From assembly GCA_019347895.1 (NCBI GenBank), contig JAHWKM010000008.1, forward strand, positions 1 through 50,279: a DNA stretch of 50,279 nt, read 5' to 3'. The translations under genes were made by a program, and so were the position numbers. The notes under the pieces are model-generated. The model had not been told where the DNA came from. It saw only the letters and a list, made by a program, of their open reading frames with translations, and ran no database searches. This document shows, piece after piece, positions 9,982-32,004 of the stretch. Within the stretch, counting starts at the first letter, position 1, and every line of letters begins with the position of its first letter. This stretch comes from Candidatus Parcubacteria bacterium (lineage in GTDB: Bacteria; Patescibacteriota; Saccharimonadia; Saccharimonadales; 2-12-FULL-41-12).

Positions 9982-10010
9982 TTGACCGTTGGTACTTGAT
10001 AATTTATAAT
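9982..10010 (+). promoter_or_regulatory. rplJL promoter
   Basis: TTGACC (9982-9987), a 17-base spacer and a perfect TATAAT (10005-10010). The predicted start near 10016 coincides with the first base of the folded L10 leader. Confidence 0.8.
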
Positions 10011-10013
10011 AAA

Positions 10014-10153
10014 TTTTAGTTACCCGAAGACAGCGACCGGTGAGAGCCTTAATACGCAATAGCGAAGTCGCCGAGGCGAACGACATTTTTTGTCACTTTT
10101 GTCTTTGGTGAAACTTACCGTTTAACCAAAGACTTTTTAGTTGGTAACTAAAA
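10014..10153 (+). promoter_or_regulatory. L10 leader (autoregulatory rplJL mRNA leader)
   Basis: The segment from about 10020 has the conserved L10-leader pattern: CCGAAGACAGC, then GCCTTAAT, then GCCGAGG. In other bacteria this motif is the binding site of the L10(L12)4 complex that represses its own synthesis. An 11-base helix closes the leader: 10014-10024 is exactly complementary to 10143-10153. A terminator hairpin (10101-10138) lies inside, so control by attenuation is likely. Confidence 0.8.
10101..10138 (+). terminator. attenuator within the L10 leader
   Basis: A perfect 9-bp stem, GTCTTTGGT (10101-10109) with ACCAAAGAC (10125-10133), followed by TTTTT (10134-10138). It sits downstream of the L10-binding motif and 70 bases before rplJ. 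Confidence 0.8.
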
Positions 10154-11233: not shown

Positions 11234-11292
11234 TATTAGATATCGCTTCCGTAGAGTAAGTGCGTTTATCCACATGATTAACTGGGGTAGTT

Positions 11293-11388: not shown

Positions 11389-11898
11389 ATGACAGACGTA
11401 CCAGATAAACAAGTTAAAAGACTCAGAGCTCTAATAGCTGAAGCTGAAACTTCTTTAGCTGCCGCTAAGGAGTTGCTGGTAAGTTTGCTCGGCGATGAAG
11501 CCAGCGAAACCAATGTTGATGTAGCTGAAAATATCGGCAAGGTCATCGAGGGCGTTTTTGACGGCCAGAACATGGTAGGCGGCGACGGCAAATCATACCC
11601 CGTACCTGCTAACTACGCCAGCAAGTCAAAATTAGTGCAGGGCGACATATTGAAGTTAACTATTTCCGATGACGGCACCTTTTTATATAAGCAAATCGGC
11701 CCTATCCCGCGAAAACAAGTGGTAGGCGTGCTGGAACTAACTGATGGACATTATTACGTCAAAGTCGGCGACCGGCATTACCGCGTACTGCTGGCTAGCG
11801 TTACATATTTTAAGGCCAAGCCTGGCGACCAAGTCAGCATAAACGTACCGCAAGAAGACGACAACGTCGAATGGGCAGCCCTAGAAGCCGCCCTGTAA
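11389..11898 (+). CDS. conserved hypothetical protein between rplL and dnaX
   Basis: A 169-residue soluble acidic protein that I cannot assign to a named family. Residues 1-45 form a predicted coiled-coil helix (KQVKRLRALIAEAETSLAAA). The remainder is beta-rich with two repeated small-barrel-like stretches: PVPANYASKSKLVQGDILKL with YKQIGPIPRKQVVGVLEL, then YYVKVGDRHYRVLLASVTYF with KPGDQVSINVP. The KLVQGDILKL and KPGDQV phrases recall OB/TRAM-like or SH3-like barrels. That is an impression from the sequence, not a match. Its place beside ribosomal stalk and replication genes suggests an information-processing role. Confidence 0.8.
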   Translation: MTDVPDKQVKRLRALIAEAETSLAAAKELLVSLLGDEASETNVDVAENIGKVIEGVFDGQNMVGGDGKSYPVPANYASKSKLVQGDILKLTISDDGTFLYKQIGPIPRKQVVGVLELTDGHYYVKVGDRHYRVLLASVTYFKAKPGDQVSINVPQEDDNVEWAALEAAL

Positions 11899-12003
11899 CA
11901 GCTTCACAAATCAGAAACCCGAAATTACGAAACTTGAAACTAAAATTGTTGTTTTATTGTTTGCCTGTTTCATATTTCGTGCTTCTAATTTCTTACTTTG
12001 CCG

Positions 12004-30619: not shown

Positions 30620-30649
30620 ATTAATATATAAAAATCTTGTGGATAAGTT

Positions 30650-30678
30650 TTGACAATTCAAATTATTAGGAAGATAAT
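30650..30678 (+). promoter_or_regulatory. strong promoter of the candidate small RNA
   Basis: A perfect TTGACA (30650-30655), a 17-base spacer and GATAAT (30673-30678). The predicted start (about 30684-30686) falls on the first bases of hairpin 1. It is the best -35 in the window. Confidence 0.8.
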
Positions 30679-30683
30679 TATAA

Positions 30684-30768
30684 GGTCATCGTGAGGTGAC
30701 CATTCGCCTAAAAACGAATGCGGGAGTGCTAAGGCACTCCCTGAAGCCCCGAAAGGGGCTTCTTTTTT
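30684..30768 (+). ncRNA. candidate small RNA made of four hairpins with own promoter and terminator
   Basis: Four stem-loops follow with almost no spacer. HP1 30684-30701 is a 7-bp stem with a GTGA loop. HP2 is about 30702-30719 (ATTCG/CGAAT). HP3 30722-30741 is a perfect 8-bp stem with a TAAG loop. HP4 30743-30762 is a perfect 8-bp stem with a GAAA loop, followed by six T's (30763-30768), a textbook terminator. With the promoter at 30650-30678 this would give an RNA of about 85 bases. It could also be a terminated leader of the Ala/Gly-rich gene at 30819. No known family recognised. Confidence 0.75.
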
Positions 30769-30818
30769 ATAATGCTTATGTGATATCTTGTTGTATATAC
30801 ATAAATAGGAGTTATACG

Positions 30819-31388
30819 ATGATAGATAAAATAATAAACGAGTCAACTAACGCTGTGGCAGCTGCTATTAGCGGAGTCGATAATGTGCTTGACGCGCTGA
30901 CCGGCGCCGTAAGAGGGCAAGTAGTAAATGTATTACAAACCGCTGGAGAAGTAGGTACCACGACCGTAGAGGCTGTCGCCTCAGTGGCTGATGGAGCTAT
31001 AAGAGGCGCAGGCAATGTAGGCGCTTCGCTGACTGATACGGTATTTAACACCATGTCCGGCATTGTAGCCGGCGTTAGCCAAGTAGGCGGTGATGTTATC
31101 GGGGCTATCCGCGGCGGGGCAGAAGGTGTTATAAAGGCAACCGCCGACACGGGCGGAGACATTGGTTCTGCGGCTGTTTCAACTGTAGAAGGCGCCATTA
31201 AAGCAGCCGGAGACGTTGGAGTAGATTCCGCCCAGGCAGCCCAAGCAGCAGCTAGCGGAGTCCTTGACGCCGCCACTGAAGTTGGCGGAGACGCGGCCAG
31301 CAAGGCCAGGGAAGCATTGCTTTCCGCAGCCTCTCTTCCTAGAGACGTAATCGAGTCGGTTATTAGCGGCAGCGACGAAAAAAAATAA
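30819..31388 (+). CDS. Ala/Gly/Val-rich repetitive helical protein
   Basis: A 189-residue protein built of loose repeats of about 11-22 residues, for example DGAIRGAGNVGASLTDTV, GDVIGAIRGGAEGVIKATAD and EGAIKAAGDVGVDSAQAAQA. It has very few aromatic residues, no Cys and a charged end (SGSDEKK). The pattern is like phasin, LEA or apolipoprotein-type amphipathic helices that coat a surface such as membrane, granule or nucleoid. That is inference. The ATG at 30819 has AGGAG 8 bases upstream; an earlier in-frame start would run through the hairpin RNA and is rejected. Confidence 0.75.
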   Translation: MIDKIINESTNAVAAAISGVDNVLDALTGAVRGQVVNVLQTAGEVGTTTVEAVASVADGAIRGAGNVGASLTDTVFNTMSGIVAGVSQVGGDVIGAIRGGAEGVIKATADTGGDIGSAAVSTVEGAIKAAGDVGVDSAQAAQAAASGVLDAATEVGGDAASKAREALLSAASLPRDVIESVISGSDEKK

Positions 31389-31614: not shown

Positions 31615-32004
31615 ATGATCAATGAATATGTAGCTGGTAGGGTTAATATAGGCGATGAAGAGATTAAGCACAGGCGCTTAACTTACGGATGGGGCGGGTT
31701 GACCTTAGCAATTGCCCTGTTCTTAATTTTTATTTTTTTTAATGTTTCCTTTTACACCTATTTATTATTGTTTTTCCCGATTTATATTTCTTTTATTGGC
31801 TTTTTGCAGGCACGCGAAAAATTTTGCATAGCTTACGGTAAATCAGGCGTTTGCAACGTTTCCGGTCAGGTCGGAGAGACAAGAGATGTCGTAGGTCGGC
31901 TCAATAGAAACAAAGACAGGCAAAAAGCTAGCAAAATGCTTGCGGTTTCTCTGACGGGTTCAGGAATCATTACTTTGGCGATAGCGGCTTTAAGCTCGCT
32001 ATAA
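31615..32004 (+). CDS. small integral membrane protein
   Basis: A 129-residue protein with about three membrane segments: LTLAIALFLIFIFFNV with YTYLLLFFPIYISFIGFL, and a C-terminal one (AVSLTGSGIITLAIAALSS). A soluble middle loop holds REKFCIAYGKSGVCNVSGQV and a basic stretch (RLNRNKDRQKASK). Two Cys lie in that loop. No family can be named with confidence. A TAATAT box (31603-31608) ends 6 bases before the ATG, so the transcript is probably leaderless. Confidence 0.75.
   Translation: MINEYVAGRVNIGDEEIKHRRLTYGWGGLTLAIALFLIFIFFNVSFYTYLLLFFPIYISFIGFLQAREKFCIAYGKSGVCNVSGQVGETRDVVGRLNRNKDRQKASKMLAVSLTGSGIITLAIAALSSL

Follow-up and report, generated by a model that had tools for sequence, protein, structure and literature searches.

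In other phyla, small RNAs are known that are linked to DnaA or to the cell cycle, judging by the accessible parts of three reports. EcpR1 of Sinorhizobium meliloti is there described as a trans-acting sRNA encoded as an independent unit, with a dominant RNA of 101 nt, independence from Hfq and a tie to DnaA; its stable stem-loops, the first strongly conserved and the second variable, recur in at least five families of one order, and an unpaired conserved loop acts on the dnaA and gcrA mRNAs of this stress-induced RNA's host (PMC4414408). The term ‘DnaA box’ is absent from the main text of that report in its accessible form (PMC4414408). CcnA, a cell-cycle ncRNA of Caulobacter, is given as 182 nt long, located at the replication origin and presumably activated by CtrA, with weak DnaA boxes in its gene (PMC8959179, accessible part). 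ArrA of Bacillus subtilis is, according to the corresponding part of its report, cis-antisense to the dnaA leader and read from a promoter that has DnaA sites and is repressed by DnaA (PMC12112137).

The locus described here lies within 50,279 nucleotides of contig JAHWKM010000008.1 (assembly GCA_019347895.1, Candidatus Parcubacteria bacterium), the whole stretch of DNA that was analysed and hereafter the window. The reading that fits it best, and which we regard as probable, is an undescribed family of trans-acting sRNAs in Saccharimonadales, often controlled by DnaA and marked by a conserved first hairpin. Comparison of related loci shows four aspects of this reading, namely a conserved RNA architecture, the promoter, a lack of ties to the adjacent genes and an excess of DnaA boxes. 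Like EcpR1, the window RNA would be an independent unit with a conserved first and a variable second stem-loop and a tie to DnaA, but the conserved saccharibacterial element is a stem with a loop of four to five bases, and the DnaA link resides in the promoter. Like CcnA, it would be an ncRNA gene with DnaA boxes; unlike CcnA, it has varied neighbours, and dnaA and the RNA lie on different contigs in genomes G000, G001, G012 and G014 (all draft assemblies). DnaA sites at the promoter are shared with ArrA, which is cis-antisense, whereas the saccharibacterial RNA is trans-encoded. As far as the accessible parts of the three reports show, none of these RNAs is trans-encoded, built in this way and also read from a promoter preceded by DnaA boxes. 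A search of open-licence papers, as far as their text was accessible, yielded no earlier description of the family and no named sRNA regulator for Saccharibacteria or other Patescibacteria.

Promoter, hairpins and terminator at the window locus

All features of the transcription unit lie on the plus strand. A TTGACA -35 hexamer (30650..30655), part of a promoter conserved in the family, is separated by 17 bases from a GATAAT -10 hexamer (30673..30678), and from this geometry the transcript is inferred to start at or just before 30684. At that position begins H1, the 5'-terminal hairpin and signature of the family (GGUCAUC-GUGA-GGUGACC, 7 bp, 30684..30701), followed by H2 (AUUCG-CCUAAAAA-CGAAU, 5 bp, 30702..30719; loop CCTAAAAA in the DNA) and H3 (GGGAGUGC-UAAG-GCACUCCC, 8 bp, 30722..30741). 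The last hairpin, H4 (30743-30762, 8 bp, loop GAAA), forms an intrinsic terminator together with a run of six T residues (30763-30768), the whole spanning 30743..30768. The original prediction had placed the promoter, the four hairpins and the T-run at just these positions, as reading of the sequence confirms. An exact DnaA box, TTATCCACA on the minus strand (30638..30646; TGTGGATAA on the plus strand), ends three bases before the -35 hexamer and was missing from that account.

The four stems are the exact minimum-energy fold of 30680-30775, at -47 kcal/mol. Dinucleotide shuffles of this segment (n=200) have a mean of -23.9 with a standard deviation of 3.4, giving a z-score of -6.8, and none is equally stable. 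Among 6692 segments of 90 bases, taken from both strands of the window in 15-base steps, the RNA segment ranks first for stability, in agreement with the earlier claim that its density of stems exceeds the background of the window. The further claim that the locus has no ORF holds only in part, since mechanical ORFs do cross it, one of them beginning at GTG 30696; the changes seen in the nearest relative preserve base pairs, which favours structure over protein at this position.

This nearest relative, G001, is the sole genome of the same genus among the samples searched, and its element, at 68% DNA identity, is the only near full-length BLAST match in 60 relatives. The promoter and all four hairpins are kept, and the four hairpins fold there. 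Of 25 aligned pairs, 19 are unchanged, four are changed on both sides, two are changed on a single side and none is broken. The pair-preserving double changes fall one in each of the four stems and include T-A to C-G in H2 and G-C to A-T in both H3 and H4. The stretch from the box to the -35 hexamer, TGGATAAGTTTTGAC, is identical in the two genomes, with the same box at the same spacing. Loss of the stems in close relatives had been named beforehand as an outcome that would refute a structural RNA; their retention in G001 passes this test.

The window RNA does not correspond to a catalogued family. No family of Rfam release 15 reaches its gathering cut-off at the window RNA, where the check had been proposed, or in the 20 pattern-defined loci (of 35; see below) that were tested; the best weak match for locus L053 is GibS at 24.9 bits against 115. 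Elsewhere in the window, at 10006-10148, lies a ribosomal protein L10 leader (RF00557, 50.8 bits). A chain of hairpins ending in a terminator also characterises protein sponges of the CsrB/RsmZ type, which carry GGA in their hairpin loops. In contrast to these, the window RNA has no GGA in its loops GUGA, CCUAAAAA, UAAG and GAAA, so that this defining feature is lacking, and it scores 8.2 bits for CsrB, whose gathering score is 71.

Members and range of the family

A model built from the window and G001 sequences (R1) was searched in 60 genomes and gave 16 matches beyond the two, of which five are counted as family (L033, L034, L035, L036 and L039). These five sit in other taxonomic families; their promoters are of the TTGAC or TTGC type, and their 5' hairpin reads YCAYYGUGAGGUGR. 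A pattern combining the promoter with the first hairpin, TTGACN{20,46}CAYYGTGAGGTG, matches at 35 sites, which are spread over 34 of the order's 392 genomes and 27 of 156 genera, whereas the reversed control matches in 1 of 392. When trimmed to the RNA, all 35 loci form H1; three hairpins are predicted for 24 of them and four, as in the window, for 11, and in all 35 the last hairpin runs into a T-rich end. Folded together with downstream DNA, a few of them form other pairs.

A second model, R2, searched over 294 genomes, added divergent members, among them those of genus g77 with the loop GUUGA and a second small hairpin, and others with the loops GAUGA and CUGGA. Family f36 has paralogues, with up to three copies per genome. 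In three genomes (loci L253, L254 and L255 in G114, G101 and G117), two to three RNA copies with diverged bodies occur within 7 kb, as in paralogous small RNAs, and no common neighbour is visible for the f36 copy clusters. At loose E-values R2 returns mostly terminators (matches in at least 214 of 294 genomes at E <= 0.1), and because many weak matches are plain terminators, the true frequency of the family is uncertain. Forty R2 matches (L114-L153) were fetched; 23 were kept, and 17 without an accepted H1 text were dropped. With L105 from R2 and L036 from R1, these make up the 25 loci beyond the pattern, for which an accepted H1 text together with a T-run was the condition of entry, and no other R2 matches were included. 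The full set comprises 60 loci in 39 genera. Loci L100, L109, L113, L137 and L257 look related, failed the text filter and are excluded from all counts on the 60.

The layout of the 60 loci is a 5'-terminal hairpin, usually YCAYYGUGAGGUGR, then variable hairpins and a terminator. GAGGUG is found in 55 (missing in L116, L118, L120, L129 and L143). The H1 consensus is partly circular, 35 loci having been chosen by the H1 pattern and 25 by a list of H1 variants. The promoter did not enter the selection of these 25 members; TTGNNN-N16-18-TANNNT nevertheless stands at the right distance in 20 of them, against 149 of 10,721 random positions, with nine of the 25 belonging to one genus, g77. That the locus is no more than a terminator preceded by accidental hairpins is scarcely credible: terminator-like matches are indeed common, and many weak R2 matches consist of a terminator only, but chance would not account for the conserved promoter and H1 or for the pair-preserving changes.

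Covariation was assessed in 23 three-hairpin relatives, in which 107 cells are double-changed against 43.8 in shuffles, and 86% of cells are paired, a share that falls to 39-50% when the 3' strands are slid. Pairs changed on both sides number 18 of 29 against 14.8 in shuffles, with 13 of 500 shuffles reaching 18, and the count of pair types does not exceed that of shuffles (66 of 500 reach it); two of five covariation measures thus exceed shuffles only weakly (13/500, 66/500). Columns of H1 fixed by the pattern carry no evidential weight. The pair beside them varies, being C-G in 11 and U-A in 10 sequences, and does count as evidence. G-U pairs outnumber A-C pairs by 66 to 25, or by 45 to 25 without two pattern-fixed columns (21 U-G cells), an excess that fits an RNA transcribed from the strand given above. 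In H2, 13 of the 23 have the tetraloop GCAA, four have TCGG, which is of the UUCG type, and six have something else, which leaves H1 as the sequence-conserved part.

Beyond the order, the exact promoter-plus-H1 pattern was sought in one genome per species (84,980 species) and gave 54 stretches. Thirty of these have H1 and the family hairpins, 27 being labelled Saccharibacteria, Saccharimonadales or Saccharimonas and three only ‘bacterium’, and two of the 30 share one contig. They match the pattern loci by eye, and serve to place the family taxonomically without adding members. The other 24 come from other bacteria, and by eye none has the family hairpins in the 80 bases inspected; at least 15 of them, mostly from Clostridia, have an ATG a few bases after GAGGUG, which there resembles a Shine-Dalgarno sequence. 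Homology with Oscillospiraceae was rejected, and so was a viral source, as the exact pattern gave no stretches in viral contigs. In the rest of the phylum the pattern occurs at the level of the control (nine genomes against seven for reversed sequence). It finds nothing in the large family f34, where the weak R2 matches inspected have no accepted H1 texts. R2 was also run on 40 genomes outside the order, 23 of which have matches with E <= 0.01; among eight loci inspected, seven are without the family architecture, including L262, which has an H1-like hairpin and no terminator. The eighth, L257, has at about 1464-1576 the promoter TTGACA-17-TACAAT, then a 5' hairpin that differs in sequence from H1 and is capped by GCAA, a ACTAGCAATAGT hairpin and a terminator, and is possibly a remote relative.

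Neighbouring genes and the case for a free RNA

The ATG of a gene for an Ala/Gly-rich protein lies at 30819, 50 bases past the T-run, and the RNA had alternatively been proposed as a terminated leader of this gene. Such a leader, an attenuator or riboswitch controlling the downstream gene, should be recognisable by a conserved same-strand downstream gene or gene class, and none is found. In G001 the gene upstream of the RNA differs from that in the window, and downstream lies a relative of the window ORF 31615-32004; the Ala/Gly gene is missing there, indicating that the RNA is not tied to it. The family loci adjoin varied genes, and the commonest shared neighbour within 1.5 kb occurs at 5 of 35 loci, all in one family. 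With ORFs of at least 80 codons taken as genes, the downstream gene is on the same strand at 42 of 58 loci, which, like the strong terminator 50 bases before the ATG, would suit a leader, but the upstream gene is equally biased (42 of 59), and at 16 of 58 loci the downstream gene lies on the opposite strand. The leader explanation therefore no longer stands for the Ala/Gly gene, and as a general account of the family it is highly improbable. The Ala/Gly-rich repetitive protein itself (30819-31388) has no Pfam match and is absent at the corresponding place in G001.

The other proposal, a free structural or regulatory RNA, agrees with the promoter, stems and terminator conserved in many genera. 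A promoter and intrinsic terminator of its own, conserved irrespective of neighbours, are what would be expected of a trans-acting sRNA, and this expectation is met. We consider it very likely that the locus makes a free RNA, with the transcript itself inferred in the absence of RNA data.

DnaA boxes and possible modes of action

Over the 102 bases that precede the -35 region at the 60 loci, TTATCCACA occurs exactly at 18 (12 of 39 genera), within one mismatch at 36 (21 genera) and within two at 46 (29 genera). Dinucleotide-matched resampling gives a mean of 0.08 loci for the exact box (maximum 1) and 1.94 within one mismatch, and among 71 further sigma-70-like promoters in intergenic DNA of the order, three have an exact box, six one within one mismatch and 15 one within two; the Fisher p-values of loci against these control promoters are 6e-5 (exact) and 2e-10 (within one mismatch), relatedness being ignored. 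Exact boxes reach 3.10 per kb in this upstream stretch; the remaining DNA of the same loci has 0.037 per kb, and the intergenic portion of that DNA 0.21 per kb. The looser motif TTWTNCACA has 42 sites in 32 loci, with a pile-up 63 and 75 bases before H1 that is partly due to nine g77 genomes, unlike the box of the window and G001, which adjoins the -35 hexamer. A box within one mismatch lies within 200 bases upstream of dnaA for all six genes in five genomes (exact in three), from which we infer that TTATCCACA is an expected target of the lineage's DnaA. The whole genome of the window has nine exact boxes against six for the reversed sequence; their total is not above chance, and their placement is.

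A DnaA box at the promoter is thus present in the window and in much of the family, and we lean towards control of the promoter by DnaA in the window's genome, both binding and regulation being inferred. DnaA cannot be the sole regulator of the family, since a box within one mismatch is lacking at 24 of the 60 loci and CRP-like palindromes also occur. TGTGA-N6-TCACA with at most one mismatch is found at six loci (L115, L119, L124, L129, L131 and L143) and at none of the 71 control promoters. Five of the six lack a DnaA box within one mismatch, and the regulator accordingly seems to switch between lineages. CRP-family proteins are encoded in 14 of 18 genomes, both with and without CRP-like sites, and do not discriminate.

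The strong enrichment of boxes would equally suit a locus whose functional part is the DNA itself, a DnaA-binding or titration site with an incidental transcript, as at datA and DARS. Boxes are few for such a site, however (the 42 TTWTNCACA sites in 32 loci), and the promoter, H1 and terminator persist where boxes are missing. The excess of G-U over A-C outside the pattern-fixed columns is, moreover, that of an RNA of the same strand. We consider a DNA site very unlikely.

For the preferred reading, an sRNA family, RNA synthesis and mode of action remain inferences. The locus would be the gene of a free trans-acting RNA of about 85 bases, read from a strong sigma-70-type promoter. The conserved hairpin, whose loop is usually of the GNRA type, would stand almost directly at the start of the RNA, followed by one or two stable hairpins that change fast and by the intrinsic terminator. 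Given the DnaA boxes upstream of the -35 hexamer in many lineages, the window included, its synthesis is probably coupled to initiation of replication and to the cell cycle. H1 is the probable recognition element, to be bound by a protein or to pair by means of its GAGGUG strand, and is inferred also to shield the 5' end, while the other hairpins may stabilise the RNA. Hfq was not detected in any of 13 genomes (the control search was positive in 5 of 14 known genomes), and this result and the scarcity of unpaired sequence make ordinary Hfq-assisted seed pairing unlikely.

One specific version of this mechanism has the H1 strand GAGGUG[A/G], which resembles a Shine-Dalgarno sequence, serve as a decoy or as a brake on translation by acting at the 3' end of 16S rRNA. 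GAGGUG is kept beside the loop variants GUGA, GUUGA, GAUGA and CUGGA, and all nine g77 loci fetched have it although the model match missed that hairpin; against this, the strand is paired within H1 and is missing in five of the 60 loci. A pattern for the 16S tail was found in 0 of 13 genomes, and a shorter form in 0 of 263 loci; with the E. coli 16S tail as a yardstick the pattern is too strict, and the assemblies may lack 16S. We regard this version as unlikely.

Another version, which we find doubtful, follows EcpR1: the sRNA would repress the mRNA of dnaA or of other cell-cycle genes by pairing with it. The DnaA-box promoter would then close a feedback loop, and EcpR1, as far as its report is accessible, offers a precedent of 101 nt that is independent of Hfq (PMC4414408). 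The saccharibacterial RNA, however, has little unpaired sequence, and CACCTC, CCACCT and TCACCT are absent from five dnaA leaders. Duplex scores with these leaders are inconsistent between genomes: of 200 simple letter shuffles, 0 were as good for G000, 5 for G001, 160 for G012, and 51 and 184 for the two leaders of G014. No target was found in the five leaders compared. The two DnaA genes of G014, on contigs C51 and C14 (L217 and L222), have long frames of 463 and 466 codons in one assembly and represent either contamination or a true duplicate.

The most far-reaching form of the sRNA reading, and one we hold only as speculation, is a lineage-wide cell-cycle sRNA switched directly by DnaA, or in some lineages by a CRP-like regulator, that adjusts translation without Hfq as H1 hides or presents GAGGUG. 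Were it true, a lineage-wide sRNA would link initiation of replication to protein synthesis. The family as such suggests an undescribed regulator tied to the cell cycle of Saccharibacteria and, if confirmed, would provide a handle on how bacteria with small genomes might couple gene expression to replication. It predicts a single RNA band of about 85-115 bases, binding by DnaA and a phenotype on deletion. The window has one more exact DnaA box, at 11266-11274, which lies upstream of a promoter-like TTGACT and of the ORF 11389-11898, and an ORF that by eye is DnaX-like begins downstream of it at 11998.
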